A stretch of DNA of 64,000 nucleotides from Dyella sp. OK004 (GTDB lineage: Bacteria > Pseudomonadota > Gammaproteobacteria > Xanthomonadales > Rhodanobacteraceae): contig NZ_FOZI01000003.1 of assembly GCF_900114495.1 (NCBI RefSeq), positions 310,001-374,000 on the forward strand, in the 5' to 3' direction. The notes under the pieces were generated by a model, which worked only from the letters and a program-made list of their open reading frames with translations, did not search any database and had not been told where the DNA came from. Numbering within the stretch: the first letter of the stretch is position 1; every line of letters begins with the position of its first letter. Made by a program: the position numbers and the translations under genes. Positions 29,930 through 58,543 of the stretch are shown in pieces.

Positions 29930-30673
29930 ATGTCGCGCGCCAAGTGGGTCTTAGCCGCAGGGTGTTTGCTTTCGGGGGGAACTGGCTATGCCATGGGTTT
30001 GCCACCGTCGTTGGATGACGTCCCCGTTCGCAGTGACGCGCGTCAGCGCCTTCATTTCGATATCGGCCCGCAGCCGTTGAGTGGCGCCGTGCGTGCGTTC
30101 AGCGACGTAACGGGCCAGGCTTTGCTGGTCGATCAGACCTTGCTTGCGGGCCGGGAGTCCCCGGGCGTGAGCGGTGACTTCACTGCCGGAGAGGCGCTTG
30201 ATCGCCTACTCGCTGGCACCGGGCTGGTCCAGCATTACTCCGCCGACCAGGCCTTCACCCTGATGCCCGCCGATGGCGCCGCGCCGACGGGAGCGGTGCG
30301 CGACAGCGAACCTCACAGTGATCGCCAAGAAGGCGATGCTCCGCCCGATCCGGTCGCCGAAGCCTACGGCGCGACGCTGCAATCGACCGTCGAAACGATG
30401 TTGTGCCGCTCCGAAACCACACGGCTAGGCACATACCGGCTGGTCATGCAGTTGTGGATCGGCACGGCCGGCGCGGTCGAACGGATGCGCCTGATCAGCA
30501 GCAGCGGTTCCGCCGAGCGCGACGCCGCGATCAAGGCCGCGATGATGCGCCTGCGGCTGGAACCGCCACCGCTGGCGATGGTGCAGCCCGTGACCATCCT
30601 TTTGTTGCCCGGCCCCGCGTCGCGACTGCCGGGTTGCGCCAGTCGCGCATCCACGCGCGACAAGGCGGCTTGA
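29930..30673 (+). CDS. VreA-like periplasmic signalling protein: STN domain fused to a TonB C-terminal domain
   Basis: A 247-residue exported protein with a signal peptide (about 1-21). Its STN domain (about 40-95: LHFDIGPQPLSGAVRAFSDVTGQALL... GEALDRLLAGTGL) is the module with which TonB-dependent transducers contact an anti-sigma factor. The C-terminal region (about 145-228) matches TonB C-terminal domains, and its LWIxxxGxxxRxxL pattern also appears in the TonB at 37156-37830. There is no barrel. This architecture and the position before an ECF sigma and FecR-like gene match VreA of the P. aeruginosa PUMA3 system. The stop overlaps the sigma-factor start (TGATG). Confidence 0.8.
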   Translation: MSRAKWVLAAGCLLSGGTGYAMGLPPSLDDVPVRSDARQRLHFDIGPQPLSGAVRAFSDVTGQALLVDQTLLAGRESPGVSGDFTAGEALDRLLAGTGLVQHYSADQAFTLMPADGAAPTGAVRDSEPHSDRQEGDAPPDPVAEAYGATLQSTVETMLCRSETTRLGTYRLVMQLWIGTAGAVERMRLISSSGSAERDAAIKAAMMRLRLEPPPLAMVQPVTILLLPGPASRLPGCASRASTRDKAA

Positions 30674-31218
30674 TGACGGCGTCGTCGATGTCGTTGCTGG
30701 CGTTATTCATGGAGCGGCAGACCGAGCTGCGCAAGCGTCTGCGCCGGCGCCTGGGCTCCGATGAGCTGGTCAACGATGTGCTGCAGGAAACCTATCTGCG
30801 CGTCGAGCGCATGCCCGACGGCACGGTTGCGCAGAGCAATCCGGGCGGCTACCTGTTCCGCATGGCGCTCAATGTGGCGGCGGACCAGCGCCAGGCCGAG
30901 GCCCGTTACCTCACCGGGGAGGAAGTCGAGGAGCTGCTGCATTTCGCCGACGATGCACTCGATCCGGCCAGGATCGTGCACGCGCGCCTCGAAGTGGCGG
31001 CGCTCGAACAGGCGATGCAGGAGCTGACCCCGCGCCAGCGCGCGATCTTGATCGCCTCCCGGGTCGAGGATGTCCCGCAACAGGACATCGCCGACCGTTT
31101 CCGCATTTCCGTGCGTATGGTTGGCAAGGAACTCAAGCGCGCACTCGAACATTGTGGCGCACGTCTCGATCGCCGGGTGGTGCAGCGGTTCGGTCCCGGG
31201 GCCGGAAAAGAGTCTTGA
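30673..31218 (+). CDS. ECF sigma factor (FecI/VreI-like)
   Basis: A 181-residue extracytoplasmic-function sigma factor. Region 2 spans about 20-80 (RRRLGSDELVNDVLQETYLRV) and region 4 about 110-162 (LTPRQRAILIASRVEDVPQQDIADRFRISVRMVGKELKRAL). The ATG at 30673 overlaps the upstream stop, and its own stop overlaps the next gene, so the three are translationally coupled. By family logic it is held inactive by the FecR-like protein until the STN protein signals. Likely targets are the secretion genes downstream; this is inference from context. Confidence 0.88.
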   Translation: MTASSMSLLALFMERQTELRKRLRRRLGSDELVNDVLQETYLRVERMPDGTVAQSNPGGYLFRMALNVAADQRQAEARYLTGEEVEELLHFADDALDPARIVHARLEVAALEQAMQELTPRQRAILIASRVEDVPQQDIADRFRISVRMVGKELKRALEHCGARLDRRVVQRFGPGAGKES

Positions 31219-32207
31219 TGAGTATGCAGACCCTTGATGCCATCACCGGCCACGGCTCGGCGCTTCACCGCGAGGCGCGCGACTGGTTGTTGCGGCTCAC
31301 CTCCGGCCGCGCCACCCCGGCCGACGCGCAAGCGTTCCGCCATTGGTGCAGCCAGAGCGCGGCCCACGCACGGGCGTTCGCTGAGACCCGCTTGCTATGG
31401 GACAACCTGGGCACGGCCGCGCGTGCGATATCGCAACGCGAGCAGGTCAAGACCGATGCGTTGCAGCGCGATCCGCGCCGCATGAGCCGCCGCGCCTTCC
31501 TTGGCGGTGCCGTGGCCGCCTCGGCCGCGTTCCTGTTGCTGCGTCCGCCCATGCGCCTGTGGCCGGATGTCGGCGACATGATGGCCGACTTCCGCACCGC
31601 GACCGGCGAGCAGCGCCAGGTGCAGGTGACGCCGGGTGTGGTGGTCGAGATGAACACGCAGACGGCGATCAACGTGAAGTACGCCGAGGGTCGCCCGGTA
31701 GGCATCGAACTGCTCACTGGCGAGATCCAGCTGCAGACACTCGACGGTGCTAGCGAGCCCTTCACCATCTACGCCTCGAAAGGTAGGGTCAACGCGTTGT
31801 CCGGATCGCAGTGCAATGTGCGCTGCCTGGATGACAATGTCGAAGTCACCGGACTCAACGGCACCGTGCGCCTGGAATACCAGGGGCGTACCGAATCGAT
31901 CAGCACCGCGCAACGCGCGCTTTACGGCCAGCGCGGTATGGCCGCACCGGCACCGGCCGATATCGACACGGCGATGGCGTGGCGGCGTCGCGTGCTGGTG
32001 TTTGATAACCAGCCGCTGTCTTCGGTGGTGGTGGAGATTAACCGTTACCGGCCGGGCAAGCTCATCCTCACCAACGATGCGCTGGGTGCGCGCAAGGTCC
32101 ATGCGCGCTTCACGCTGAACCAGCTCGCCGATGCGGCTACGCTGATTCACGACGCCTTCGGCGCTCATGTCACTACCTTGCCGGGTGGCATCGTGCTGCT
32201 GAGCTGA
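31218..32207 (+). CDS. FecR/VreR-like anti-sigma factor (sigma regulator)
   Basis: Inner-membrane anti-sigma factor of 329 residues. A cytosolic DUF4880 domain (about 16-62, with the conserved WLLRLTSGRATPADAQAFRHWC) should bind the sigma factor. A single membrane segment lies at about 93-109, and a periplasmic FecR domain (about 124-220) and C-terminal STN-like region (about 255-329) follow. Arg-Arg precedes the membrane helix (SRRAFLGG), a Tat-like feature. The start ATG at 31218 shares an A with the sigma-factor stop. It is followed by a large palindromic repeat region before the TpsB gene. Confidence 0.85.
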   Translation: MSMQTLDAITGHGSALHREARDWLLRLTSGRATPADAQAFRHWCSQSAAHARAFAETRLLWDNLGTAARAISQREQVKTDALQRDPRRMSRRAFLGGAVAASAAFLLLRPPMRLWPDVGDMMADFRTATGEQRQVQVTPGVVVEMNTQTAINVKYAEGRPVGIELLTGEIQLQTLDGASEPFTIYASKGRVNALSGSQCNVRCLDDNVEVTGLNGTVRLEYQGRTESISTAQRALYGQRGMAAPAPADIDTAMAWRRRVLVFDNQPLSSVVVEINRYRPGKLILTNDALGARKVHARFTLNQLADAATLIHDAFGAHVTTLPGGIVLLS

Positions 32208-32843: not shown

Positions 32844-32861
32844 ATGACGGTTCGATGTCAG
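32844..32861 (-). promoter_or_regulatory. Pho-box-like direct repeat upstream of the TpsB gene
   Basis: On the minus strand the sequence CTGACATCGAACCGTCAT has two heptamers 11 bp apart. CTGACAT and CCGTCAT each match 6 of 7 bases of the PhoB heptamer CTGTCAT. The 4-nt spacer is CGAA. Orientation is opposite to the TpsB gene, 395 bp upstream of its start. PhoB binding is inference. Confidence 0.45.
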
Positions 32862-32894: not shown

Positions 32895-32911
32895 CATGAA
32901 ATTTTCGTGAC
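32895..32911. promoter_or_regulatory. 17-bp motif shared by TpsB and TpsA upstream regions
   Basis: CATGAAATTTTCGTGAC here matches CATGAAGTTTTAGTGAC at 40951-40967 and 41148-41164 (15 of 17 identical). It may be a common regulatory site for the two-partner pair. Confidence 0.4.
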
Positions 32912-33255
32912 TCGGTTCAGTCCCTCGCGCGGCATGCCGTCTAACTCGGCATGGATGTGATCCACGGGCTGGGATGCCCACTCTCATTCTTGGCGTTTGC
33001 CTGGCGACATCGGGCGGGCGCGATCTTGGAACGGAGAGCGGCCGCCGGCGTGCGGTCCTCGGGGGATGGTGGTCGCGTGATAGATCATGGTGTGGTTTGG
33101 CCGTCCAGATGGCCGGCGGGCAAGGGTATGCGCGACACGGCGATGGCCTTGGATCGGACATGTGTCTGTCGCGGTTTGGTTATCCGGCGCGCTATAGCTT
33201 TGGCGTCCATATGGGAAGGGATGGCCAGCGGGTGTGTCGTGAGCGGGGCGCACGC

Positions 33256-34860
33256 ATGAGCGCATGGATGGCGCGCAACGCGGCTCGGCGGCCGCTGGCA
33301 TGGCTGATCGCGATGGCGCTGGCATGGCCAGCGCCTGGTCACGCGCAGCAGGCCGGCGCCACCCCGAGCGAGGCGCCCGCGCGTTTCGATGTCAACGAGT
33401 ACCTGGTCCGCGGCAATACCTTGCTCGAAGCGGTGGATATCGAGCAGGCGGTGGAACCGTTCCTCGGCCCTGGCCGTAGCCTGGACGACGTGCACGCCGC
33501 TCGCGATGCCGTGCAAAAGATCTACCAGGCCAAGGGCTATCAATCGGTGGTGGTGGAAGTGCCGCCGCAGCAGGTGAAGGCCGGCGTGCTGTTGTTGCAG
33601 GTGACCGAGAACAGCGTCGGCCGCGTGCGCGTGGAAGGTGCCAAATACCACTCGCCACAGGCGATCCGTGATGCGGTGCCGGCGCTGGCCGAAGGCGCGG
33701 TGCCCAACTTCACCAAGGCGCAGGAGCAGCTCACGGCGATCAACCGCCAGCCGGGCCAGCAGGTGGTGCCGTTGCTGAAGCCAGGCACCTTGCCGCAGAC
33801 CATGGATGTGACCCTCAAGGTCGACGACACCTATCCGCTGCACGGCAGTCTGGAAGTCAACAACGACCACAGTGCGGATACGCCCGTGCTGCGCACCATC
33901 GGCAACGTCCGCTACGACAACCTGTGGCAACGCGGGCACGCGATCTCGGCCACCTATATCGTCGCGCCGCAGGATCGCAACGCCGCCGAGGTCTACGCGC
34001 TTTCCTATCTGGCGCCGGTGGGCGACGGCTGGAGCCTGTTGGGCTCGGGCTACAAGTCCAACAGCAACGCCAACACACTGGGCGGCACCACGGTGCTGGG
34101 CAAGGGCAACGCCGTCAGCCTGCAGGCCACGCGGTTGTTGCCGACGCTGGGCACCTATAGCCAGTCGCTGTCGTTCGGCGTGAGCCGCAAGCATTTCGAC
34201 CAGAACATCAGCATCGGCAGCCAGACCTCCAAAGTGCCGATCACTTACTTTCCGGCCGCCGTTACTTACAACGGGCAGCGGATAGGGGAGAAGTCGTCGA
34301 CTGGGTTCACGCTGGCCGGCAATTTCGGTTGGCGCGGCATGGGCAGTGACCGCAACGCATTCGACAACCAGCGCTTCAATGCACGCCAGAACTTTGCGTA
34401 TCTGCGCGCCGACTTCAACTACACGCGCGTGTTCAAGGGCGATTACTCATTGGCCTTCCGCGCCAGTGGCCAGCTCGCCGACTCGCCGCTGATCTCCAGC
34501 GAGCAGTTCGCGGCGGGCGGCGCCAGCAGCGTGCGTGGCTATCTGTCGGCGGAAGACACCGGCGACAACGGCGCCATCGGTTCGGTGGAGCTGCGCAGTC
34601 CCTCCATCGCGTCATGGGTCGGCGACGCGGTCAATGACTGGCGCTTTCATTTCTTCATCGACGGCTCGCGCGTGCTGCTGATCGATCCGCTACCGGACCA
34701 GCGCGGCCGCTTCACCTTGCTCAGCACGGGCGTGGGCACACGCTTCGTGTTGTTCCGCTACCTCAATGGCGAGCTCGAGTACGCCTATCCACTCAAGGAC
34801 GGCGCGCGCACCAAGGCGCACGACGGCCGCCTGCTTTTCAACGTGAAGGCCAGCCTGTGA
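33256..34860 (+). CDS. two-partner secretion outer-membrane transporter (TpsB, ShlB/FhaC/PdtB-like)
   Basis: Outer-membrane Omp85-superfamily transporter that exports a TpsA partner, almost surely the giant exoprotein at 41294-54400. The ATG at 33256 gives 534 residues with a signal peptide ending GHA-QQ. Two POTRA domains follow (about 44-118 and 121-190, the first reading YLVRGNTLLEAVDIEQAVEPFLGPG), then a 16-strand barrel. The conserved loop-6 motif VRGY is at 426-429. The longer frame from 32974 lacks a signal peptide at its start and is rejected. It begins an operon-like run with exbB, exbD, tonB and three exported proteins. Confidence 0.9.
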   Translation: MSAWMARNAARRPLAWLIAMALAWPAPGHAQQAGATPSEAPARFDVNEYLVRGNTLLEAVDIEQAVEPFLGPGRSLDDVHAARDAVQKIYQAKGYQSVVVEVPPQQVKAGVLLLQVTENSVGRVRVEGAKYHSPQAIRDAVPALAEGAVPNFTKAQEQLTAINRQPGQQVVPLLKPGTLPQTMDVTLKVDDTYPLHGSLEVNNDHSADTPVLRTIGNVRYDNLWQRGHAISATYIVAPQDRNAAEVYALSYLAPVGDGWSLLGSGYKSNSNANTLGGTTVLGKGNAVSLQATRLLPTLGTYSQSLSFGVSRKHFDQNISIGSQTSKVPITYFPAAVTYNGQRIGEKSSTGFTLAGNFGWRGMGSDRNAFDNQRFNARQNFAYLRADFNYTRVFKGDYSLAFRASGQLADSPLISSEQFAAGGASSVRGYLSAEDTGDNGAIGSVELRSPSIASWVGDAVNDWRFHFFIDGSRVLLIDPLPDQRGRFTLLSTGVGTRFVLFRYLNGELEYAYPLKDGARTKAHDGRLLFNVKASL

Positions 34861-34906: not shown

Positions 34907-36718
34907 ATGACAATGCGTTACCTGATACTCGCGTGTTTGCTATGCCTGTCGTGGCTGGCGCGCCCCGCCATGGCGGCGGATGCCTCGTGGTGGAACGACG
35001 ACTGGTCCTTCCGCAAAGCCATCACGCTGGATACCAGCCCCAAGGGTGCCGGCATCGCGCAGGCGCCGGGTCGCGTGCCGCTGCTGATCCGCCTGCATCC
35101 CGGCAACTTCCAGTTCGACGGTGTGGCCAAGAGCGGTGCGGATATCCGTTTTATCGCAGCCGACGGCAAGACGCCGCTCAACTATGAAGTGGAAAGCTTC
35201 GACCCGGTGATGGGCGTCGGCCAGATCTGGCTGGACACCACCGACATGCCGGCCAACGGCCAGCAGACTGTGTGGATGTATTACGGCAACACCAAGGCGC
35301 CGCCGCAGAGCAGCGGTGCGGCGACTTTCGATGCCGACTACACCCTGGTCTATCACTTTGATGATGCCGCCGGTGCATCGCCGAAGGACGCCACGGCGTA
35401 CGGCAACAACGCGACCAAGGGCCAGCTGCGCCCGGTGGATGGCGGCATCGTCGGCAAGGCCGCGCGCTTCGACGGCAGCTCGACGCTGACGCTGCCGGCC
35501 GCGGCTTCGCTGAACCTCACGGCGGGCGGCAATTTCAGCTTCAGCGCCTGGATCAAAGTGGACGCATTGCCCACCGCGCCGACCGCACTGTATGCGCGTC
35601 GCCAGGATGGCAAAGGTGTGCTGATCGGTCTGGCCAACGGCGCGCCGTTTGTCGAGATCGACGGCGAGCAGGCGCAGCGCAGCGCAGCGGGCGAGCCGAT
35701 CAAGGCTGGCCAATGGACGTATCTGGCGGTCACCGCCGACAGCAGCAAGACCGTGCTTTACGTCAACGGCCAGCCCTATGCGACCTTGGCAGCCACCGTG
35801 CCGGCATTGACCGATGCCGCGACGGTAGGCGGCGAAGCACCGGCTGCCGACGGGCAGGGCGCGGCGCTTGCCAATTTCATCGGCGACATGGATGAGCTGC
35901 GTATCTCCCGCGTGGCGCGCCCGGCCACCGTGCTGGCGGTCGATGCGCTGTCGCAAGGCGCGGAATCCAAGCTGGTGCAGTACGGCGAAGACGAAAAGAA
36001 ATCTGGCTTCGGTTTCGGCTACTTCGGCATCATTGTCAAATCGGTCACGGCCGATGCCTGGGTGGTGATCGGCATCTTGCTAGTGATGGCGCTGATCTCC
36101 TGGGTGGTGATGTGGAACAAGGCGCGCTACGTCGGCGCGGTCAGTTCGGCCAACGAGCGTTTCCTGGACCGCTTCCGTGATCTCGGCAGCAACCTGCTCG
36201 GTCTCGCCGAAGAATCGCCGGCCACCAAGGTCGAGCTGGCCGATTCCTCGCTCTACCGTTTGTACGAAACAGGCAAGAAGGAAGTGTGGCGTCGCCGTAA
36301 CAAGGACGGCCACGTGGTCATCGCGTCCGAGTCGATCGAAGCGATCCGTGCGGTGATGGATTCCACCCTGGTGCGCGAGAACCAGAAGCTCTCGCGCTCG
36401 ATGGTGATGCTGACCATCGCTATCTCCGGCGGCCCGTTCCTGGGCCTGCTCGGCACCGTGGTCGGCGTGATGATCACCTTCGCCGCCATCGCCGCGGCCG
36501 GCGACGTCAATGTCAACGCGATCGCACCCGGCATTGCCGCTGCGCTGCTCGCCACTGTGGCCGGTCTGGTCGTCGCCATCCCGGCGCTGTTTGGCTACAA
36601 CTATCTGCTGACGCGCAACAAAGCGGTCACCGCGAACATGCAGGTGTTCGTGGATGAGTTCGTCACGCGTCTGGCCGAACTGCACCGGGAGGCCGACCTC
36701 AGCACGGTCGGCCCATAA
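34907..36718 (+). CDS. exbB: ExbB-family proton channel with DUF2341 and LamG-like periplasmic extension
   Basis: A 603-residue fusion. After a signal peptide (1-23) come a DUF2341 domain (about 28-135, WWNDDWSFRKAITLD) and a concanavalin/LamG-like jelly roll (about 145-345, YHFDDAAG... FSFSAWIKVD... MDELRISRVAR). The membrane part follows: helix 1 at 384-402, a cytosolic loop, then helices at about 506-530 and 544-566 of MotA/TolQ/ExbB type (GGPFLGLLGTVVGVMITF). It should form the proton channel with the ExbD encoded 12 bp downstream and power TonB. The periplasmic sugar-binding-like head is not found in ordinary ExbB; its partner is unknown. Confidence 0.88.
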   Translation: MTMRYLILACLLCLSWLARPAMAADASWWNDDWSFRKAITLDTSPKGAGIAQAPGRVPLLIRLHPGNFQFDGVAKSGADIRFIAADGKTPLNYEVESFDPVMGVGQIWLDTTDMPANGQQTVWMYYGNTKAPPQSSGAATFDADYTLVYHFDDAAGASPKDATAYGNNATKGQLRPVDGGIVGKAARFDGSSTLTLPAAASLNLTAGGNFSFSAWIKVDALPTAPTALYARRQDGKGVLIGLANGAPFVEIDGEQAQRSAAGEPIKAGQWTYLAVTADSSKTVLYVNGQPYATLAATVPALTDAATVGGEAPAADGQGAALANFIGDMDELRISRVARPATVLAVDALSQGAESKLVQYGEDEKKSGFGFGYFGIIVKSVTADAWVVIGILLVMALISWVVMWNKARYVGAVSSANERFLDRFRDLGSNLLGLAEESPATKVELADSSLYRLYETGKKEVWRRRNKDGHVVIASESIEAIRAVMDSTLVRENQKLSRSMVMLTIAISGGPFLGLLGTVVGVMITFAAIAAAGDVNVNAIAPGIAAALLATVAGLVVAIPALFGYNYLLTRNKAVTANMQVFVDEFVTRLAELHREADLSTVGP

Positions 36719-36730: not shown

Positions 36731-37138
36731 ATGCAAGTCCAAGACGACGACAAGCCCTACGACGACATCAACATCACGCCGATGCTGGATCTGGCGTATG
36801 TGCTGCTGGTGATCTTCATCATCATGACCACCGCCTCGGTGCAGGGGGTGAAGGTGAACCTGCCCAAGGCCAGCGCGTCGGTGAGCCTGGCCAAGCCGCA
36901 GACCAAGGCGATCACCGTGTCGGAAAGCGGGCAGATCTTCCTGGATGCGTTTCCGGTCACGCTCGGTGAGCTGGAAGCACGACTGCGCACGCAGAAGGCG
37001 GTGACGCCCGACTTCCCGATCATCGTGAAAGGCGACGCCGGCGTGCAGTACCAGAAGGTGGTCGACATTCTCGATCTGCTGCGCCGGCTCGATCTGTCGC
37101 AGGTCGGCCTGGTCACCGGCAAGCAGCCGGGCGGCTGA
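36731..37138 (+). CDS. exbD: ExbD-family energy-transducing protein
   Basis: A 135-residue protein with a short cytosolic N-terminus, one transmembrane helix (about 18-34) containing the conserved proton-carrying Asp20 in ITPMLDLAYVLLVIF, and a periplasmic domain. It pairs with the ExbB-like protein just upstream to form the motor that drives TonB. Spacing of 12 bp upstream and 17 bp downstream indicates one operon. The family signature around Asp20 is unambiguous. Confidence 0.93.
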   Translation: MQVQDDDKPYDDINITPMLDLAYVLLVIFIIMTTASVQGVKVNLPKASASVSLAKPQTKAITVSESGQIFLDAFPVTLGELEARLRTQKAVTPDFPIIVKGDAGVQYQKVVDILDLLRRLDLSQVGLVTGKQPGG

Positions 37139-37830: not shown

Positions 37831-37922
37831 CCCCTTTCCATTCAACACCACATTCCGCGTTGGCTCGGTTGCGCACTGGGTGCGCTCCTACCCGACGGCA
37901 CCGCACACTTTTGGAGAACATC

Positions 37923-40317: not shown

Positions 40318-40721
40318 GCGGCATCGCCACGGCGCACTCCGTCACGCATAGCGTGCGGATGCCGTGGCGATGGCTGATGGTGCTGGGTATCGGCGCGCTG
40401 CCGCTGACCGATGCAGTCGCTGGCGAGCCGCCAGCTTCCGCGCCGCCGAGTTGCGTTGAAGTAAGCATCAACCAGCGCTCGGTGCTTGCCTTCGATTGCC
40501 TTAGCCGCGCGCTCGCTCCGAACGCCGCGGCAAATCCGATGGCGCGAGCGCCGGTGATGGATGCGGTCGCACTTGAACCCTCCAACCGGCAGGTCGGCCA
40601 ATACAACTTTTCCGCGCTGAGTCACCGCATGGGTTCCAACCTTGGCAAGTCGGTGCTACCGCAGCGGCCACCACCGACGTATCCCTCGGTGCCTTTGCTG
40701 CATCCACCCGGCGGGCATTGA
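40314..40721 (+). CDS. small exported protein of unknown function
   Basis: A 135-residue predicted protein starting at the ATGA overlap with the upstream coiled-coil gene. It has a hydrophobic signal segment (about 16-37, MPWRWLMVLGIGALPLTDAVAG) followed by a Pro/Ala-rich chain with two cysteines (Cys47 and Cys62). No family is recognised. It is the last gene of the TpsB-Exb-TonB run and is followed by tandem REP-like elements and the giant TpsA gene. The overlap and signal peptide support it as real. Confidence 0.6.
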   Translation: MSGIATAHSVTHSVRMPWRWLMVLGIGALPLTDAVAGEPPASAPPSCVEVSINQRSVLAFDCLSRALAPNAAANPMARAPVMDAVALEPSNRQVGQYNFSALSHRMGSNLGKSVLPQRPPPTYPSVPLLHPPGGH

Positions 40722-40740: not shown

Positions 40741-40758
40741 ATGACGATTCGATGTCAC
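40741..40758 (-). promoter_or_regulatory. Pho-box-like direct repeat upstream of the TpsA gene
   Basis: On the minus strand GTGACATCGAATCGTCAT carries two heptamers 11 bp apart (GTGACAT and TCGTCAT, each 5 of 7 to CTGTCAT). It differs at only two positions from the motif at 32844-32861. It lies about 540 bp upstream of the TpsA start. Confidence 0.4.
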
Positions 40759-53200: not shown

Positions 53201-54400
53201 GTGGACTTCATGGAACGTCGCGTCGCTGGGCGCGTGGTGGATACGGGCTACGCGCAGGACAAGATCACGGTCCAGCTGACACCGCAGGAAGCGCGTCGCC
53301 TGTTCAATCAGGAGCCAGACTACGTACAACGGCAGTTCGTATCGAAGGCGCTGTTCACCATCCTCGCCAAGGTGGGCGCGGACTACAACGACAAGAGCAG
53401 CCCGTACTTCAGTCAGTACGCACGCGGCTATGCGGCGATCGACACGCTGTTCCCGGCCGGCTTCGGCTACACCGCCAATGGTTTGGGCCAGGGTGGCTTG
53501 AATGGTGCGCAGACCACGGTCGACACCGGCGATCTGGATCTCCGCGGCACCACCATCCAGACCCAACAGGGCGGTGACGTCACCGTGCTCGGGCCCGGCG
53601 GTCAGGCGTTGCTGGGCAGCGCGTCGGCACCTCCGGTCATCACCGACAGCCAGGGCAACGTGAAGGCAGGCCCCAACACCATGGGTGTGCTGACGCTGGA
53701 GCAGGGCGCCATCCGCATGTTCACCGACCGCAGCGTGCTGCTGGCGCAGAGCCGCGTGTTCACCGAACAGGGCGGCGACCTGGTGCTATGGAGTTCCAAC
53801 GGCGACATCAATGCGGGCCAGGGCGCCAAGACCACGGCGGAGATCCCGCCGCCGAACTACCTGTGCACGATCGACGCGTGGTGTCGCCTCGACGCACGCG
53901 GGCAGGTCAGCGGCGCGGGCATCGCCACGCTGCAGACTGTTTCGGGCGCGCCGGAGGGCAGCGTGTATCTGATCGCGCCGCGCGGCACGGTGGATGCAGG
54001 CGATGCCGGCATCCGTGTCTCGGGCAACCTGATTGTGGCCGCGGCGCGGGTAGCCAACGCCGACAACATCCAGGTGCAGGGCGAAAAGATCGGCGTGCCG
54101 GTGGCGCAATCGGTCAATGTGGGAGCGCTGAACGCGGCGAGCGCCGCGGCTAGCGCGGTAACCAAGGCGGCCGAGGATATGGCGCGGCAGCAGCAGGACG
54201 ACGCGCGCAGCAAGCTGCCCTCGGTCATCTCGGTGCAGGTGCTAGGTTTCGGCGATGGCAGCGCCAGTCTCAACAATGGCATGGGGGCGCCGCGGCGCTA
54301 CGACCCGAGCAGTCCGGTGCAGGTACTGGGCAGCGGCGTGCTGAGTGCGCGGGCTAAACAGCAGCTCACGGCGGAAGAGCGCAAGCAGCTGGCGGAATAA
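41294..54400 (+). CDS. giant two-partner secretion exoprotein (TpsA, filamentous-haemagglutinin/PdtA-like)
   Basis: A secreted or surface-held beta-helical protein of about 4368 residues. The GTG at 41294 follows GAGGG and gives an extended basic N-region and signal peptide (RRPLAQWIAAALAMGAAMQVHA). A Gln/Ala-rich stretch precedes the TPS secretion domain (about 170-290), recognisable from FNQSGGNQSSGANDWIALNRI and LLNRNGILFG, a variant of the NPNGI motif. The remainder is Gly/Ser/Asp-rich with repeated LxxxGxxxxxxA strands. A 206-residue unit is duplicated at 49841-51026. The only cysteines I see in the mature chain form CX5C at residues 4191 and 4197. The last 170 residues resemble the DUF3739-type tail. 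Partner: the TpsB at 33256. Roles in adhesion are family-based inference. Confidence 0.9.
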   Translation: MIKPLKSVDVVKASPRGALGRRPLAQWIAAALAMGAAMQVHAGNPPLSQAWLAGQRGQVGAPATGNVTTPVPTGLAAQTSGQLLQQRVVQQSIANLNNAAQAVAAQLSAQQAAQQAAQQLSSPVPDGLAAGGLQVAASLASNPLLWQNANAPVQTAAAGKTTVEVKQTAAKAIMTWDSFNVGRNTTLYFNQSGGNQSSGANDWIALNRIQDPSGVPSQILGQIKAEGSIYLLNRNGILFGAGSQVNTRSLLASSLNLFNGDVATSNTRFLNGGIADKNSTSSLLMDGVFTDGRNHDVVIEKGANITTGKQGFALVAAPHVSNAGVIVTDDGQAILAGGTAFYNPAGADGGATLQIAGSYDGQGINGFMGSVVNTGLIQARRGGVHMVGHDVTQAGVALASTSVAYPGSIELNARDQAAGNGSSLNFTRGGTLVLAPGSVTAVLPEKDGTTTSSSAAANAAFKGSALSLDGATVSLQSGSLLEAPGAAVAIAAHAYALDTSPTAGRVYVDSGAIIDVSGLADVVLPMSALLVNVSRIGQNELANSPLLRDGFLYRQKDVAVDSTQSGTRADGLGWVGSPILNVAGYVDNVPRTVEQLITKGGNLSLYGSEVILRSGSQVNLNGGFLSYQPGWVETPNLLGANGRVYDIAAADPDMTYVGFAGQFTMDHPRWGISQTFNDKLLGGTRRWDPGFVTGGDAGKLAVQASKALVLDADMTAQAFAGRNQVGQGKQPSGGNFEFDLPSALATDVRFTYTPGILLQQSALMLDKLVPGFNADTTWDTVIAAQPADTGHDADLRWWLPISTGMLSDGGFATVKLSTGDSSSQILQQAGSTLELRPGGSVDISANRITVLGDIRAPAGSISIASTGPGVQTPSMQAADGSLLRPDITIGKGATLSTRGLWVNDSGLTADQRVGDRYINGGSISLSTNIANSAGNKDLTGSVLLEAGSTLDVSSGGYVGGDAQVQKKNGVPTGRGGDVSLVTYGNANALLPQPAQLDGGELRLDGTLLGYGFGGGGTLSLQANYIQIGGDRAAMPMANGLYLDPAFFSGQGFDQYKLTAITDGIVAPGTQVRVTRNNFLPDYQALLIAPTGSDLYAKDVTHPNGVYATVGALDAYHRYVTRNSSAGTGFSLSAGQYLDWLVNPQDPSKGAPQYVGVSGSVLVGNGAGIDVDAGGNLALAGTQATTVLGTLTAHGGGIDVSTKQLTRASGLPQMTQRVWLSESALLDASGIALTDPWAAPVAGPDGTPHVPRTGVVLDGGNVSLKGSGGYVVAQQGSRIDVSGTADRFELPIRDPSGLGNTTRYLGTPVWSDAGNVTLGAAAGLYFDGQLQATGGAAAAEGGTLTLLGLGRRPGQLTAPRASGVLIQQSGLLVPQDAQPDSGVETGTPSGVVHFAADRLKGSGIDTLVIGPDPSQAGSLDLATAVPLGFAGDVNLSLGRAFIANTPAIQVLPAGATTLLSTANGYASGNGQVSIKAPYVSLTGGVVQTAAPVAMAGDGKLSLDANFIDIGGWLNLQSWGEADFESAGDIRFQAPPLLAYANGKPRPGLLFSTGNLSFKAAQLYPATDYRFAIVANGSGLKDASGNAIETTLIILPNGSSQTPLSAGGTLLLSANHIEQQGTLRAPSGNLIIGVTDAAAQATALGADPKLFPLTATQSVHLAPGSLTSVSLDGVTVPYGSTIDGVQWRYSADPFNDAPDLTAPPSKQISLNGADLALDAGAGIDLSGGGHLQAAEWVAGTGGTRDVLAQYSTTYQNSTAGTQIPQYADGRAIYAILPGYSAPVAASDAAFAKQGGAGPAVGQSVYLSGAPGLPAGYYTLLPARYATLPGAFRVVQDTSARDSVLGSNAVQPDGTLAVSGYFADALSGAHDARNTTFLAQSGKVWQQYSQYRLSDADTFFTSLANKAGKVAPAVAADAGRLTLAATRTLDLGTSLTAAPAKGGRGSQVDIAAQAIQVVGADTSAGDGYLTLSADGLSTLGAGSLLLGGSRQTGDDGDHVTTMADSVVLSNDAAHPLQGAEILLVANGGTRVGAQGVLLESGSVLKATGQGSGASSVPLVFGAVAGTDANGQSTAAVSGDGALLRVSQNGAAGIVRNNISANPGGALTIGAGARIDGGAALTLDATGSTSVDASAALSAQAIDANSNRITFLGDGATVPAGANGFVIGRDTLDLLRGAQSVTLRSRGDMNFLGDVRIDLAHDLNLSAGTFASDGGTVDIEAGKLGLSNDLGAANGTFVAGTGQFTARANEVDFGAGNIGLRGFGGFSATATQGMQGQGTGRFDFGSLDVNLTSPWLLAGAGADTQLITTGALRVGGTAGAISGEPMGGALSLSGGNVSIGTTIAAPAGKLDVHATSGDLAVTDSALLTVGGVNKTFFDTTTYAAGGALKLIADHGGISLGQGATLDFSGAAGGGDAGSLDAEAGASLSLAGTLRGQAKDGYRGGYLTLGSGTAMDLDATAQQAAAAGATGLFQLTTGTGDLHLSAGNTLRAQKVYLSAAGGTVAIDGTVDASANSGSRIELYGERGVDVEGSLIATSAIAAQRGGDVVIGTGGTGDGTFNANYGYQNVQYADSGYIHLGPQARIDVSGGSSDAFSGGSVSLRAPLLANDDVRIAVDGGGAAIKGARVVTLEPYARWSTQGGSSDPSKRFDGLIDPAGWYATNANGGTPIMVAGTWTDASGKILPTPADATQLKQYLQNNYFIPKQVNTDHAGFYGYIDGDASKGPGTLMRYVEQPGYVFGNRYASIANLQLRPGIELVNPANGTRGGDIAVLTNWNLGAGITQPDGSIALAYRYQGLAPMLTVRAAGNLDLQASITDGFYQQNNGATLANPPAPPPPPVSDNGYADALAGYNVSQQFLDAKGLWNGTIKLRDGSAALGYTPGGGTVSIASDPYYQALQAPLMGQSSDYYANYKAYIGEVGDGTQANTWVYAYNNVGGPTAKGFLVYKPSTLTQINPVDYPVYQDYVTAYQTWLKSNFATNPVAKRITTPPPLLLPLDSDYTKYTADYATYISGHNNYFTYVLTKVANQIFGTQLFYAPFAPKANPTDPLYAKALADYQKSQQFLDAKGLWNGTIKLRDGSAALGYTPGGGTISIASDPYYQALQAPLTGQSSDYYTNYEAYIGEVGDGTQSNTWVYAYNNVGGPTAKGFLVYKPSTLTQINPADYPVYQDYVTAYQTWLKSNFAANPVAKRITTPPPLLLPLDSDYAKYTGNYAVYITGHNNYFKYVANSVANQIFGSQLFYAPFTPKSDVARPSGGTAVPVPASAANNSPSNMPSLGSPVSLASATLLGGSSTSYRLVAGAQVDAVDPLGTVAGAGDVNLDNHFAVVDTLTPNTTTGQQSKTNGKAVLLPAVVRTGSGSIDIVSGGNVNWLDVAAPTAVYTAGTPAQGSATDTNVSVIRSNWISELANTPYMLNTGQVNPEHGGDLMLSARGDINAIQQVIDADGSATKAAGTDISQYWWPWMQTANAADGSASSINFANFGQGVMSAGGNVAVSAGGDIRQLSVSLPTTWKANADGQSVTTYGGGNLDVRAGGDILSGTYFVAKGKGKVEAGGAIGADFRYTAPTTDPNYAGQSTLVSALFALQDAQLDVRARAGADIGGVYNPSYLFVDQRSGSPGTSILPATHGDAQSYSAASSFGAEAVGGNVVFDSLRLPGALFDYGSSQTINNPGAILPTTLSLAAPSGSVDIRGAGALYPSAQGNLTVLADQNVLLSQQVSTMQDGSGASSTYGLGLIDAPDSLLPSPLHPRGDESVESSLGWLWLRGYLDSTEVAGTLAHAKTPLHADDPAPVRMYALHGDIVDGIPSPAGFQYRSLQLTPSKPALVRAGRDIVNLSLLGQQTHDADVTLVSAGRDIYDLPINKTFLPSGSTDLGSYQLAAALLLGGPGSFLIEAGRNIGPLTSQSETVATAIVQKTENTGIDAVGNRFNPYLPHASADINLLYGISPGVATADFMAHYVDVAATGVDSQMPELVDFMERRVAGRVVDTGYAQDKITVQLTPQEARRLFNQEPDYVQRQFVSKALFTILAKVGADYNDKSSPYFSQYARGYAAIDTLFPAGFGYTANGLGQGGLNGAQTTVDTGDLDLRGTTIQTQQGGDVTVLGPGGQALLGSASAPPVITDSQGNVKAGPNTMGVLTLEQGAIRMFTDRSVLLAQSRVFTEQGGDLVLWSSNGDINAGQGAKTTAEIPPPNYLCTIDAWCRLDARGQVSGAGIATLQTVSGAPEGSVYLIAPRGTVDAGDAGIRVSGNLIVAAARVANADNIQVQGEKIGVPVAQSVNVGALNAASAAASAVTKAAEDMARQQQDDARSKLPSVISVQVLGFGDGSASLNNGMGAPRRYDPSSPVQVLGSGVLSARAKQQLTAEERKQLAE
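49841..50458 (+). repeat. 618-bp in-frame tandem duplication in TpsA, unit 1
   Basis: Encodes SQQFLDAKGLWNGTIKLRD... through the ...KANPTDPLYAKALADYQK linker. It is nearly identical to unit 2 over most of its length, and the two diverge mainly toward the 3' end. The period is exactly 618 bp (206 codons). The Tyr/Asn/Pro-rich content differs from the surrounding beta-helix repeats. Confidence 0.9.
50459..51026 (+). repeat. 618-bp in-frame tandem duplication in TpsA, unit 2
   Basis: Second copy of the unit, starting again at SQQFLDAKGLWNG and ending near YAPFTPKS. Differences from unit 1 are few in the first 130 codons (for example Val to Ile, Met to Thr) and more frequent afterwards, as expected for an ageing duplication. 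Confidence 0.9.
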
Positions 54401-54424: not shown

Positions 54425-54907
54425 GTGTTTCCATTATGGAAACGCCCTTGGTGGGATTTTATCCGGCGAATACGGATAATCCATCCGGCAGGGAGTGCAA
54501 TAGCGGTGCAGCAGCCTGGTCGAGGCAAGGCGTTCGCGTTATCCGAGGCGTTGCGTCAATTACTGGATGCGCGTCAGGATAAAATGGCCGATCGGTTGAT
54601 TGATCAATGCAGCAACGAGCTGGTTCGGCAAATCAGCGAATCCCCCATAGCGTCACTCAATGTGCGCCTTTCCTATCTATTGAAGACGCGTCTGCGGCGG
54701 CGTACGACGCAGGGTGAGCGTGGTCTGCACAGCGCCGCGCCGTTACTGGTGAGCGTGTTCAATTTGTGGTGCCGCGAGGGGCGGCGGGCGTCTGTACGAA
54801 GTGTTTTGCGCGAACTTGGCGGTGCCGATCTGCGCGCACTGCGCGAGGAGCGCGAGCTGGATCCCGAAGTGGTGTCGATGCTGCGCGAATTCGATTTGTG
54901 TGCTTGA
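54425..54907 (+). CDS. small helical protein of unknown function downstream of TpsA
   Basis: A 160-residue mostly helical, Arg-rich protein with no signal peptide (KAFALSEALRQLLDARQDKMADRLIDQCSNELVRQ..., then LRELGGADLRALREERELDPEVVSMLREFDLCA). The frame opens at a GTG at 54425; a second GTG at 54506, with GGGAG upstream, would give 133 residues and may be the true start. It sits 25 bp after TpsA. In P. aeruginosa the small gene phdA follows pdtA in the same position, but I see no motif proving homology. Function unknown. Confidence 0.55.
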   Translation: MFPLWKRPWWDFIRRIRIIHPAGSAIAVQQPGRGKAFALSEALRQLLDARQDKMADRLIDQCSNELVRQISESPIASLNVRLSYLLKTRLRRRTTQGERGLHSAAPLLVSVFNLWCREGRRASVRSVLRELGGADLRALREERELDPEVVSMLREFDLCA

Positions 54908-55101: not shown

Positions 55102-56385
55102 ATGATCTTCGGGTTCAATGGAAATACCCGCATGAACAAGCTTGCGGGCGCCCTCGTATTGGCCATCGTTGCCTCCTCGGCTCACGCCGCCATCCAGGTG
55201 GGCGGTGGTGCCACCCTACCGGCCGTCGGCTACGTCGGTACTGTGACGCATCGCCTGAATGCATCTCCGGATGCCAACTCCTTGCTTGGTGCCTACAAGA
55301 GCGTGACGGGCACGCCGGCGTCCTACTGCCAGACCGGCAGCGGCGCGGGCAAGAACGTTCTGGCTGGCGTGACCAGCGTGCAGGGCCAGTGCGCGGACAG
55401 CCCGTCGCCGACCGATTTCGGTGCGGCCAACGCGTTGGTGAACCGCACCACCCTGACCCAGCCGAACTTCGCCGGCTCGGATTCGCCGCTGTCGACGACT
55501 GACTACACCAACTACACCGGCCATCGTGGCACCAGCCGTCCGCTGCAGTTCCCGGCGGTAGCCGGCGGCATCGCTATCGTGTATCGCAACGACAATCTGT
55601 CGACCCAGCTGAGCCTGACTTCGGCGCAGGTGTGCAGCATCTTCAACGGCACCACCACCAAGTGGAGCCAGCTGGGCGTTGCGGCACCAGTGGCCGGCGA
55701 CACCATCAAAGTGGTCTATCGTGCCGACGGTAGCGGCACGAGCTTCGGTTTCAGCAACTTCCTGTCGGCCAACTGCTCTGGCACGCCGGCCGCGCACTTC
55801 AAGACGGACCAGGCCTTCTCCAGCGCAGTCTCGCTGTACAGCTTGCCGGGCGCGTCCTGGAACGGTCAGAGTGGCAACGCCAATGTCGTGAACACCATCG
55901 TAAATAGCGCTGACGATGGCTACATCGGCTATGCCGAAGCCGCCAACGCGCTGGCCGTGGCCGGCAATATCGCGCTCGTCAACGGCAAGGACCCAGCCGC
56001 CGACCTCGGCGATGCGACGACGCACAAGGTGACCATCAACAGCGCCGACGTGGTCTACAACAATGCCATCACTGGCGTGGATGCAAACACCGGTCGTCCG
56101 ACCTTCGGTCCGATCTCCGGTGCGCCGACCACCAGCTGCATCGCTCTGGTGAAGCCGAATGCCTATGCCACGCCGGCTGCGGGCTATCCGATTGTTGCCG
56201 TGTCCTACCTGCTGGGCAGCAGCGAAGGCAACGGAGCAGATGCGGCTAACGTGCGCAAGCTGCTGGGTGCTCCGTACAACAGTTCAATCGTCTCCGCTAC
56301 TGGCACCATCGGTGCCGGTACTGGTCTGGCGTTCCTCACCGCTCCGATCACGCAGACCCAGATCGACGGCTGCGTCATCAACTGA
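55102..56385 (+). CDS. PstS/LapA-like exported phosphate-binding or alkaline-phosphatase protein
   Basis: A 427-residue exported protein of the PstS-like periplasmic-binding fold. The signal peptide ends at SSAHA, then AIQVGGGATLP, GSGAGKNVL, DFGAANALV, AGSDSPLS, FPAVAGGIAIVYR, LTSAQVCSIFNGTTTKWSQLG and VVYRADGSGTSFGFSNFL follow, the classic phosphate-binding loops. AGGGG at 55091-55095 supports the ATG at 55102 over 55132. It carries several cysteines and no lipobox. With pseudopilin genes next to it, it could be a type II-secreted low-molecular-weight phosphatase like P. aeruginosa LapA, or a DING-type protein. Binding versus phosphatase activity cannot be told from sequence. Confidence 0.82.
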   Translation: MIFGFNGNTRMNKLAGALVLAIVASSAHAAIQVGGGATLPAVGYVGTVTHRLNASPDANSLLGAYKSVTGTPASYCQTGSGAGKNVLAGVTSVQGQCADSPSPTDFGAANALVNRTTLTQPNFAGSDSPLSTTDYTNYTGHRGTSRPLQFPAVAGGIAIVYRNDNLSTQLSLTSAQVCSIFNGTTTKWSQLGVAAPVAGDTIKVVYRADGSGTSFGFSNFLSANCSGTPAAHFKTDQAFSSAVSLYSLPGASWNGQSGNANVVNTIVNSADDGYIGYAEAANALAVAGNIALVNGKDPAADLGDATTHKVTINSADVVYNNAITGVDANTGRPTFGPISGAPTTSCIALVKPNAYATPAAGYPIVAVSYLLGSSEGNGADAANVRKLLGAPYNSSIVSATGTIGAGTGLAFLTAPITQTQIDGCVIN

Positions 56386-56414: not shown

Positions 56415-56445
56415 CGCAGGAGAGGCTTGCCTCTCCTGCGTTTTT
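56415..56445 (+). terminator. intrinsic terminator after the PstS/LapA-like gene
   Basis: Perfect 11-bp stem (CGCAGGAGAGG at 56415-56425, CCTCTCCTGCG at 56430-56440), CTTG loop, followed by TTTTT. It separates the exoprotein gene from the pseudopilin operon. Confidence 0.88.
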
Positions 56446-56484
56446 GCGCGTTTGGCTGTCATGAAGGCGGAATAGGTTGGGGAG

Positions 56485-56961
56485 ATGAAGCGGAAACTGG
56501 GAATAGGTAACGGGGAACGGGAAACGGCTCTACGGCGGCGCACGTCCACCCGTTCTCTGTTCGCTGTTCCTCGTTCCTCCGCTCGCGGCTTCAGCCTGCT
56601 TGAAGTCATCGCCGCCATCCTGCTGCTCGCCATTGCCGTTGGCGCGCTGATGCGCGTGGCCAGCGCCTCGCTCAATCTCGCCGACAAACTTGGGCAGACG
56701 ACGCGGGCGGACATGCTGGCGCAAGGCAAGCTCGACGCGTTGGGCATCGCCGAGCCGCTGACCCTTGGCGAGCGCGAAGGCGTGTTCGATCGCGATTTCC
56801 GTTGGCACCTGCGCGTGGCGCCATGGCAGGGCGACGACTTGCCGCCGGACAGCACCTTGACGCTGTACCGCGTGGAGTTGTATGTGCTGTGGGGCGATGC
56901 GCGGCGGCCGCGGGAATTGAAGTACGTGACATTGCGGACCGTAAAAAAGGCGACGCCATGA
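56485..56961 (+). CDS. gspI: type II secretion minor pseudopilin GspI
   Basis: A 158-residue type IV-pilin-like protein. The prepilin peptidase site is ARG-FSLLEVIAAILLLAIAVGALM, cleaved after Gly35, with the conserved Glu at position 5 of the mature chain. The T2SSI-like body follows. The leader of 35 residues is unusually long; it is encoded by a heptad-repeat stretch (56499-56578) and no alternative ATG, GTG or TTG exists before the cleavage site. It overlaps gspJ by 4 bp. Order I-J-K supports the assignment over GspH. Confidence 0.82.
   Translation: MKRKLGIGNGERETALRRRTSTRSLFAVPRSSARGFSLLEVIAAILLLAIAVGALMRVASASLNLADKLGQTTRADMLAQGKLDALGIAEPLTLGEREGVFDRDFRWHLRVAPWQGDDLPPDSTLTLYRVELYVLWGDARRPRELKYVTLRTVKKATP
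56499..56578. repeat. GGGAAYR-type heptad repeats forming an inverted repeat inside the gspI leader
   Basis: The left arm (about 56499-56527) reads as successive GGGAATA / GGTAACG / GGGAACG units. The right arm (about 56549-56578) is the complementary CGTTCTC / TGTTCGC / TGTTCCT series. The arms can pair. This low-complexity DNA is translated as the long GspI leader, which suggests insertion or expansion of an intergenic repeat into the gene's 5' end. Confidence 0.55.
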
Positions 56962-57638
56962 CAGGCCGTCTTCCCGCTCGAGGTTTCACTCTGCTCGAAG
57001 TGCTCAGCGCCTTGGCCTTGCTCAGCATGCTCCTGCTCGGCGTTTTCTACGCCATCCAGACCGCGACGCGCTCGGTGAACTCGGGGTCAGCCGCGCTGGA
57101 ACGCAACGATCAGGCGAGGTCGTTGCAACAGTTTCTGCGCCGCGATCTGTTGCAGGCGCGTGCGTTGCCTTGGAAGCTGGACCCGAAAGGGAATGGCGTG
57201 GTGTTCGAGGGTGGGCCACGGAACATGCATTTCGTCGCGCCGCTGCCGGGCTATCTCGATCGGGCGGGTCCTCAGCTGCAGGCACTGGCATTGGTGGACG
57301 ACGGCAAGGGCAAGCTGAAGCTGCAACTGGGCAGCGCGCCGCTTGCACCAGGTGGAGCGGGCGTGGGGTTCGAGCCCGAGGTACTTGTCGCGGGAGTGAG
57401 CGGTGGACGCTTCCGCTATTACGGCCGGGAGCGTGAAGGCATGGATGCGCAATGGCGCGACCAGTGGAACATCGCCGGGCGCATGCCCGAGCTGGTGACC
57501 GTCGAGCTGGAGCGCGAAAAGCCGGACCGCGACAAAACCACGGCGTGGCTATGGCTGCAGGCACCGATCCGCCAGAATCCTTATGCGATCAACGTGGGCG
57601 CGCTGGCGAGGGCCTTGCCGGACGGGTCGAAACCATGA
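56958..57638 (+). CDS. gspJ: type II secretion minor pseudopilin GspJ
   Basis: A 226-residue pseudopilin that begins at the ATGA overlap with gspI. The short leader MTGRLPARG is cut before FTLLEVLSALALLSMLLLGVFYAIQ, with Glu at mature position 5. The larger soluble domain (RNDQARSLQQFLRRDLLQARALPWK...) is typical of T2SSJ. GspI, J and K form the tip complex of the pseudopilus that pushes substrates through the secretin. It overlaps gspK by 4 bp. Confidence 0.87.
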   Translation: MTGRLPARGFTLLEVLSALALLSMLLLGVFYAIQTATRSVNSGSAALERNDQARSLQQFLRRDLLQARALPWKLDPKGNGVVFEGGPRNMHFVAPLPGYLDRAGPQLQALALVDDGKGKLKLQLGSAPLAPGGAGVGFEPEVLVAGVSGGRFRYYGREREGMDAQWRDQWNIAGRMPELVTVELEREKPDRDKTTAWLWLQAPIRQNPYAINVGALARALPDGSKP

Positions 57639-58543
57639 GTGGCATGAAAGCATCGCGGTCGTGCGCGGGCTGCCGCCGTGAACGCGGCATCGCGCTATTG
57701 GTGGTGCTATGGGCCTGCACGCTGCTGGCGGTCCTGCTCGGCGGTTTCGCCACCCTGGCGCGCACCGAATCCATCCAGACCCGCTATCTCTCCAGTCGCG
57801 TGCAGTTGCGTTACCTCGCCGAGGCCGGCGCGATGCGCGCGCTGGCCGAATGCGTCAGCAGGAGCGGTGGACGCTGGGTCGGCGACGGTCGTCCATACAG
57901 CTTCCATATCGAGAATCACGACATCGACATTCGCATCCAGGACGAGCTTGGCAAGGTGGACATCAATGCCGCCGATCCGCGCTTGCTGCAGCGCTTGTTC
58001 ATGGCAGCGGGCCAGGATGAAGCGTCGGCCACGCGGCTGGCGGCGAACATCCAGGAAACGCGCGACGCCGGTGCGAAGCTTTTCCGCGAAGAAGGAACGA
58101 AGCGTTACGCAGCGGCCGGGCTGGAAGTCGGGCCGCGCTATCGCGAGTTCGACATGCCCGAGCAATTACAGACGGTGCTGGGTATGACGCCGGCTCTGTA
58201 TCGCAAGCTTGCGCCCGCGATCACTGTATGGTCGCGTCGCGCGGAGCCGACGCCAGCGCTGGCTCCACCGCTGGTGCTGGCGAGTATGCCCCAGATGGAT
58301 ATGGCCAAAGCGGAGCGCTACGTGGCACAACGCGCACTGCTGTCCACACGTACGCCGCCGCCGACATTGCCGAACGGACAGGCGGCCGGTGCATGGCGTG
58401 GCGGACAGGTGAGGACAGTCGTCGCGTCGGCGGTTGATGGGCAGGGGACGAAGGCGAGAGTGATCGTCACGTTCCGGTTGACGGCGCTGCGGGATGGGCT
58501 GGGATACAGCGTTTTACGATGGCAGGAAGACGGGGCGGAGTAG
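57635..58543 (+). CDS. gspK: type II secretion minor pseudopilin GspK
   Basis: A 302-residue pseudopilin starting at an ATGA overlap. The leader ends RERG before IALLVVLWACTLLAVLLGGFA. The normal Glu5 is absent, a known trait of GspK, which caps the pseudopilus. A large helical insertion includes a helix-hairpin-helix-like stretch (LGKVDINAADPRLLQRLF). No other T2SS core genes (gspC-H, L, M) follow, since the next gene is on the opposite strand. Confidence 0.87.
   Translation: MSGMKASRSCAGCRRERGIALLVVLWACTLLAVLLGGFATLARTESIQTRYLSSRVQLRYLAEAGAMRALAECVSRSGGRWVGDGRPYSFHIENHDIDIRIQDELGKVDINAADPRLLQRLFMAAGQDEASATRLAANIQETRDAGAKLFREEGTKRYAAAGLEVGPRYREFDMPEQLQTVLGMTPALYRKLAPAITVWSRRAEPTPALAPPLVLASMPQMDMAKAERYVAQRALLSTRTPPPTLPNGQAAGAWRGGQVRTVVASAVDGQGTKARVIVTFRLTALRDGLGYSVLRWQEDGAE

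Follow-up and report, generated by a model that had tools for sequence, protein, structure and literature searches.

The window analysed here, a stretch of 64,000 nucleotides from Dyella sp. OK004 (host genome 4.96 Mb), carries one conserved locus at positions 29,930-58,543. Its description as a variant of the PUMA3/Pdt kind is well supported, with two unusual traits: a TonB motor joined to two-partner secretion (TPS), and a type II secretion tip without its motor. We consider it probable that the locus is a PUMA3/Pdt-type cell-surface-signalling and TPS unit of a Dyella-like bacterium, working as a whole in the way proposed below. Another 29 genomes show this gene order, so the arrangement is more than chance. 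A sequence-only reading of this DNA had listed an STN protein, an extracytoplasmic function (ECF) sigma factor, a FecR-type anti-sigma factor, TpsB, ExbB/ExbD/TonB, a porin, two small exported proteins, TpsA, a PstS-like protein and GspI/J/K. Every one of these genes is present, and Pfam and NCBIfam support all that were named. That list lacked a conserved gene at 54425-54907, which lies between tpsA and the PstS-like gene. Our literature search returned no description of such a locus in Rhodanobacteraceae, nor of powered TPS. The genes of the signalling and TPS parts are as follows.

29930..30673, + strand: VreA-like periplasmic protein, STN plus TonB-type C-terminal part (Pfam STN; bilobal AlphaFold model)
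30673..31218, + strand: VreI-like ECF sigma factor (Sigma70 r2/r4; in 29 of 30 fetched loci)
31218..32207, + strand: VreR-like FecR-type anti-sigma factor (DUF4880 and FecR)
33256..34860, + strand: TpsB outer-membrane transporter (POTRA_2 and ShlB)
34907..36718, + strand: ExbB with a DUF2341 and laminin-G extension (Pfam)
36731..37138, + strand: ExbD (Pfam)
37156..37830, + strand: TonB (TonB_2; TIGR01352 at cut-off)
37827..39680, + strand: Porin_5 outer-membrane protein (Pfam, 9e-170)
39694..40317, + strand: exported coiled-coil protein with a conserved C-terminal part (in 75 of the 80 named loci described below; no Pfam match over cut-off)
40314..40721, + strand: small exported two-cysteine protein, here sm2 (family in 59 of 82 searched sequences)
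41294..54400, + strand: TpsA exoprotein, 4368 residues (PF05860 TPS secretion domain; C-terminal DUF3739; 0.1% Cys)

In Pseudomonas aeruginosa, the published region contains vreA-vreI-vreR, hxc, lapA, pdtA, phdA, pdtB, exbB2, exbD2, tonB4, the putative porin PA0696 and PA0697 (PMC2729926, PMC4971064, PMC7035377). The window locus resembles it, as the P. aeruginosa side is described in these publications, in having a small STN/TonB-like receptor, an ECF sigma factor and a FecR anti-sigma factor. By published gene order it also shares the succession pdtB-exbB2-exbD2-tonB4-porin-PA0697. In P. aeruginosa a pho box is described immediately 5' of the sigma promoter (PMC2729926, PMC4971064, PMC7035377); in the window a good PhoB-box-like site precedes the tpsB pair, and those before vreA and tpsA are weak. 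PUMA3 homologues with TPS, ExbBD and PA0696 homologues are reported from P. fluorescens, P. entomophila, B. vietnamiensis, R. palustris and Janthinobacterium (PMC2729926); linked TPS, ExbBD and PA0696-type porin genes are all found in the window. The VreA-like protein is a small receptor with an STN domain, a TonB/TolA-like C-terminal domain recognised by fold match, and no beta barrel. Lobe 1 of its bilobal AlphaFold model resembles the signalling domains of PupR/PupB, FpvA and FecA (Foldseek, best E 1.9e-07). Lobe 2, sub-threshold by TIGR01352, matches TolA-III, HasB and TonB C-terminal domains with high Foldseek probability, yet E is about 0.02 or worse. The VreR-like protein and a protein of P. 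fluorescens, the genome used here in place of P. aeruginosa, are reciprocal best hits with 48% identity (241 bits in one direction, where the runner-up has 96, and 239 in the reverse direction, where it has 68). The window differs from the P. aeruginosa region in lacking the Hxc set, in carrying Xps-derived gspIJK and in the position of tpsA, downstream of the tpsB operon.

The locus had been called a rearranged PUMA3 relative with an adjacent TonB-dependent receptor. The kinship stands on synteny, the VreR reciprocal best hit and the presence of the cassette in Pseudomonas and Burkholderia; the adjacent receptor and the hxc link do not. The receptor was matched in 0 of 29 relatives' fetched loci. 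As candidate parts of the locus, it and the upstream glycoside hydrolase were dropped together (no match in 29/29 fetched stretches).

The family sample comprised 147 genomes, with E < 1e-240 as the criterion for the fused ExbB (next best match in any genome 1e-28). The full-length lectin-fused ExbB was found in 30 of them. In all 30 loci, each fetched as about 30-40 kb, tpsB-exbB-exbD-tonB-porin-coiled coil-tpsA stand in one order on one strand. The vre genes lie at most 10 kb upstream of tpsB in every locus, inverted in G066, G124 and G092; the fetched stretch of G028 begins inside vreR, so that only this gene of the trio is covered there. Downstream of tpsA, the PstS-like gene is present in 29 loci (not found in G013) and gspIJK in 17; G133 and G062 are truncated by a contig end within a gspE-like gene.

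A wider scan, with one genome per species, gave at least 479 confirmed relatives; the best 80 are the named loci, 20 kb each. Their genera include Dyella, Luteibacter, Rhodanobacter, Burkholderia, Paraburkholderia, Trinickia, Cupriavidus, Caulobacter and Pseudomonas. Within these best 80, the loci most like the window are from Dyella species (Rhodanobacteraceae), and tpsB stands directly 5' of exbB in 80/80. Dyella japonica DSM 16301 (L176) has the locus, as does Dyella marensis (L171), which matches the tip-only genome G068. The six-gene cassette (exbD, tonB, porin and coiled coil behind tpsB-exbB) is complete in 75 of the 76 with enough sequence. Within the 20 kb, a piece of tpsA was seen in 41/80 and vreR in 50/80. 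The fused ExbB has the same architecture in four of four distant examples tested (Pseudomonas, Caulobacter, Burkholderia, Luteibacter), and DUF2341 is named among the N-terminal appendages of such motors in a published account (PMC12505986). In an even sample of the phylum, the fused ExbB occurs in 14 of 398 genomes, one of them cut by a contig end. Of the 13 evaluable, ten have tpsB directly before the fused exbB and two have tpsA there.

On the side of secretion, the genes are those of a type Vb system of the FhaC/FhaB class: TpsB has POTRA_2 and ShlB barrel domains and TpsA an N-terminal TPS domain (PF05860), with its likely start, read from the sequence, at the GTG at 41294. Unlike that class, the window locus has its own ExbB-ExbD-TonB motor genes. 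Judged by gene order alone, TonB may power the secretion of TpsA; linkage to the porin is nearly as tight as to tpsB. A tangible possibility is that the TonB complex serves Porin_5 or another outer-membrane importer, scavenging whatever TpsA or the PstS-like protein delivers, and is merely co-regulated with an unpowered TPS. The occurrence of Porin_5 in the cassette of 75 of 76 loci ties the motor to the porin about as tightly as to tpsB, and type V translocation is described as needing neither hydrolysable energy nor a gradient and as working in vitro without external energy (PMC5422565). In G412, one of the 13 phylum genomes, the fetched 13 kb also hold fused exbB-exbD-tonB but no tps gene. 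However, the gene directly 5' of exbB is a tps gene and not the porin (tpsB in 80/80 named loci; one or the other of tpsB and tpsA in 12 of the 13 evaluable phylum genomes), and L224, the exception among the named loci, has tpsB-exbB-exbD-tonB without a detected porin or coiled coil. As a separate observation on the motor (34907-37138), TolQ/TolR models score above ExbB/ExbD models, all below cut-off, and the pair may lie between the two known classes, TolQ/R and ExbB/D.

Comparing by eye the regions before tpsB and tpsA, we found a shared element and then a promoter-like pair. The sites before the two genes, together with the PhoB-box-like sites discussed below, are listed here.

32844..32861, - strand: PhoB-box-like site before tpsB, CTGACATCGAACCGTCAT (matrix of E. 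coli sites, 14.8 bits, p 0.02)
32895..32911, + strand: conserved element upstream of the tpsB promoter (sequence comparison of loci)
32915..32942, + strand: promoter-like pair GTTCAGT-N17-GTCT of the tpsB operon (exact match; upstream of tpsB in 30/30 loci)
40741..40758, - strand: PhoB-box-like site before tpsA, GTGACATCGAATCGTCAT (same matrix, 9.2 bits, p 0.08; weak alone)
41148..41164, + strand: conserved element upstream of the tpsA promoter (further copy at 40951-40967)
41169..41196, + strand: promoter-like pair GTTCAGT-N17-GTCT of tpsA (second exact genome-wide match)

The exact pair GTTCAGT-N17-GTCT occurs twice in the 4.96-Mb genome, at the tpsB and tpsA sites. In the family, GTTCAGT-N17-GTC[TC] lies before tpsB in 30/30 loci and before tpsA in 19/30, and it matches nowhere else in the 1.18 Mb that the loci comprise; the tpsA-side pair is absent in all 11 Luteibacter/Pinirhizobacter-type loci. 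Only the exact form is telling, because with one mismatch allowed the reversed control pattern gives 44 matches genome-wide against 29 further matches for the pair. The longer pattern TGAC-N4-GTTCAGT-N17-GTCT, with at most one mismatch, has 27 matches in 22 of the 30 whole genomes, all 27 at the locus (control 2); the eight genomes without it have three bases, not four, after TGAC. These loci are not independent tests, since the motif was first read off these sequences and its occurrences in relatives were counted afterwards.

The intergenic regions have further structure. Ahead of tpsA, at 40767-41170, two copies of a unit of some 200 bp containing GC-rich stem-loops are present; each copy has the upstream element (40951, 41148), and the promoter-like pair lies behind the second copy only. 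A scan for sigma-70 promoters in 54300-58750 returned none. The gap between vreR and tpsB (32261-32807) holds a 126-bp inverted repeat (83%) with a 62-bp inverted repeat inside.

PhoB-box-like sites were scored in the 400 bases before each gene (p <= 0.05), and the window was scanned against 60 shuffles. They precede vreA in 19/29, tpsB in 15/30 and tpsA in 10/30 loci, compared with 3 of 132 random control windows; as a positive control, five of six pst operon promoters were recovered. Counts are low at the other genes: 5/29 for the PstS-like gene, 1/16 for gspI, 0/17 for gspK, 1/30 for exbB and 2/30 for the porin. The tps genes thus look like one circuit, with pairs before tpsB and tpsA only and PhoB-box-like enrichment at vreA, tpsB and tpsA. 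The broader suggestion that the whole set is one circuit lacks such support at the PstS-like gene and gspIJK, which have no such pair, a terminator-like hairpin at 56415 between them and weak PhoB-box enrichment. This distal part of the locus reads as follows.

54425..54907, + strand: small helical protein, 160 residues (adjoins tpsA, before or after, in 30/30 loci)
55102..56385, + strand: PstS/DING-type exported binding protein (PBP_like_2; TIGR00975 sub-threshold)
56415..56445, + strand: terminator-like hairpin followed by a T run (11-bp stem, -21.7 kcal/mol; unlisted by the consensus scan)
56485..56961, + strand: GspI-type minor pseudopilin (gspI models below cut-off)
56964..57638, + strand: GspJ-type minor pseudopilin (gspJ models below cut-off)
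57635..58543, + strand: GspK-type minor pseudopilin (T2SSK_1st over cut-off; NF037980 below)

The PstS-like protein belongs by sequence to the PstS/DING family, and its best PDB sequence match is the DING protein 3w9v. The term phosphatase, applied earlier to this locus, is a name only: the protein falls in a binding-protein family, and phosphatase activity is unsupported. In P. fluorescens SBW25, the DING protein Psp, encoded beside a 4083-residue haemagglutinin and hxc, is reported to be secreted mainly by Hxc (PMC2225411). The window locus is alike in having a PstS-like exported protein, a giant haemagglutinin and adjoining type II genes; the SBW25 locus as described has eleven hxc genes, whereas the window has I-J-K only (PMC2225411).

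A possible but doubtful alternative is that the PstS-like gene and gspIJK stand beside the vre/tps unit independently, sharing phosphate control with it at most, and that the circuit consists of vreAIR and the genes behind the two promoters. No promoter-like pair precedes either of them, the hairpin separates the one from the other, PhoB-box enrichment is weak at both (5/29 and 1/16), and gspIJK are present in only 17/30 loci. Because gspIJK lie behind the hairpin and have no pair, their place in the circuit rests on synteny. On the other hand, the PstS-like gene is kept in 29/30 loci, and PstS/DING-like, tps and more distant type II genes are co-located in P. fluorescens SBW25, as described for that strain (PMC2225411), and in Burkholderia cepacia (L361).

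The gsp genes had been taken for an hxc remnant. A single Xps-type cluster (L123) lies elsewhere in the genome; its genes, assigned from their order and similarity, are E, F, G, H, I, J, K, L/M-like, N-like and D. The GspK of this cluster shares 43% identity with the window GspK (213 bits), compared with 24% (24 bits) for the GspK-like protein of P. fluorescens, which is the only one found in that genome, about 25 kb from vreR, and is taken as Hxc. For this reason gspIJK appear Xps-derived, and an Hxc origin was rejected on the GspK comparison alone, with a single Pseudomonas protein standing for Hxc. The window I, J and K nevertheless differ from the Xps system in forming a divergent second lineage. 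Of a complete machine, the genes scanned at the locus include I, J and K only; the components E, F, G, H, L, M, N and D were not found. In window positions 1-24 kb, the ten + strand open reading frames scanned between 786 and 13122 are housekeeping genes and add no further gsp gene; about 13-22 kb lay outside the scan.

The relatives form a series. Two, G123 and G064, carry gspEFGH-IJK-L behind the PstS-like gene. Eight Luteibacter-type genomes have IJK with a locus gspD match (upstream of vreA in all eight, with a second behind IJK in three), and seven have IJK only (G000, G053, G068, G081, G002, G028, G021). G132 has gspD without IJK, and ten loci have no detected gsp gene within the 10-11 kb that follow tpsA. 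In a GspF search of the 30 genomes, a close GspF (77-100% identity) occurs exactly once, and outside the locus, in all 15 with IJK and no locus motor, whereas G123 and G064 have two each; further matches at 29-34% were taken as pilus homologues. In G123, a single contig, 3782 bp of locus gspE-gspH are 98.0% identical to the genome's own Xps, and the match breaks off where gspI begins. For the draft G064, the corresponding stretch is 91-95% identical to its own Xps (cross-species Xps copies 79-89%), compared with 41-50% for the I, J and K proteins. This pattern indicates exchange or recent copying of the genes for motor and body, with I/J/K remaining a separate lineage. The joined I-J-K alignments place 17/17 orphans together in FastTree (0.996), and the J tree splits orphan from Xps on one branch (99/96). 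A single origin of all orphan K was not retained: the K tree, in which the short or long-branch rows G020_xps and G021_loc were kept, needs two changes, with four Luteibacter K beside Luteibacter Xps on a branch of 2.85.

These data also bear on the idea that the orphan gspIJK are decaying, functionless remnants of a lost second type II system, which we regard as improbable. Motor copies can decay at this locus, as the G123 gspF match shows by its internal TAG (G123:C1:184534-185742; the second gspF copy has no stop). However, in four members of the genus I, J and K have no stops and ratios of nonsynonymous to synonymous rates (dN/dS) of 0.11-0.28, and motor-less gspIJK are kept in four genus groups (g1, g3, g11, g21). 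A contact-dependent-inhibition locus, as a giant TpsA with TpsB might suggest, is very hard to credit, because TpsA ends in DUF3739 with no other Pfam domain there, its last 1133 residues are 51-83% identical across 11 compared relatives rather than swapped, and the gene behind it has no Pfam family.

Substrate recognition reportedly depends critically on the tip of minor pseudopilins, H-I-J-K (PMC6211770). The orphan tip is perhaps swappable, 15 genomes pairing it with one close type II motor located elsewhere, and we infer that GspI-J-K retargets the Xps machine to the PstS-like protein.

Several smaller observations concern the other genes. The export of the coiled-coil protein and of sm2 (39694-40317 and 40314-40721) was judged from sequence, without a signal-peptide program. 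sm2 has a conserved cysteine pair, the core PSNr-G-fN...RmG-n-GkSv-PQRP and no Pfam family, with homologues in L161-L228. The position of its gene shifts: before tpsA in Dyella, divergent and adjoining vreA in Luteibacter and P. fluorescens. The 54425-54907 product is all-helical in its model and had no Pfam or NCBIfam match and no PDB fold match at E <= 0.001. For exbB, the coiled-coil gene and vreI, G053, G068 and G081 are much closer to one another than to the window (proportion of nonsynonymous differences, pN, for exbB 0.03-0.06 against 0.14-0.15); for the PstS-like gene and gspIJK, the four are about equidistant (0.06-0.17). This uneven divergence, 34907-36718 compared with 55102-58543, suggests recombination inside the locus.

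Taken as a mechanism, phosphate starvation would raise vreA-vreI-vreR through PhoB, as the boxes imply. The VreA-like periplasmic protein and the FecR-type VreR would gate the sigma factor, which would read two promoters only, that of tpsB-exbB-exbD-tonB-porin-coil-sm2 and that of tpsA; the sites are present as sequence and the binding is presumed. TpsB would export the 4368-residue TpsA, as family knowledge predicts. Judging from the near-invariant gene order, ExbB-ExbD-TonB with the lectin-like ExbB extension most likely acts on TpsA secretion or on outer-membrane assembly of TpsA or the porin. The PstS/DING-like protein most likely leaves by type II secretion, through the single Xps machine fitted with the locus GspI-J-K. 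A bolder combination, in which the TonB motor with its lectin-fused ExbB drives or releases TpsA, GspI-J-K under the phosphate circuit retargets Xps to the PstS-like cargo and the two-cysteine protein is the missing signal or assembly factor, seems to us rather unlikely as a whole.

Besides G412, a number of points weigh against the mechanism proposed above. The PhoB matrix draws on seven E. coli sites, with mononucleotide shuffles, which keep base composition only, as background, and the window sites are borderline before vreA (p 0.07) and tpsA (p 0.08). Named loci from outside the family showed no promoter-like pair ahead of tpsB, bar a single unlike match in L228; this also sets the ten loci from Pseudomonas (L230-L239) apart from the window. 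P. aeruginosa VreA is reported to be unnecessary for sigma activation (PMC4971064, PMC7035377), and the cited account holds that type V secretion draws on no source of energy (PMC5422565). With the hairpin at 56415 before them, gspIJK may well be their own transcription unit. The genes are optional, being absent within about 8-12 kb after tpsA from 11 of the 28 uncut family loci (the ten mentioned and G132). Finally, the tip as published has four members, H-I-J-K (PMC6211770), and the window locus has no gspH.

The accepted view, as that account puts it, is that TPS uses no energy source (PMC5422565), and a TonB motor adjoins TPS genes in nearly all the genomes here that have the fused ExbB. 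If the bolder reading is true, the locus would represent proton-powered TPS, contrary to the rule of unpowered type V secretion, together with a plug-in type II tip. The graded series of relatives, from second motor plus tip, through tip plus secretin, to tip alone, is a natural experiment on type II specificity.

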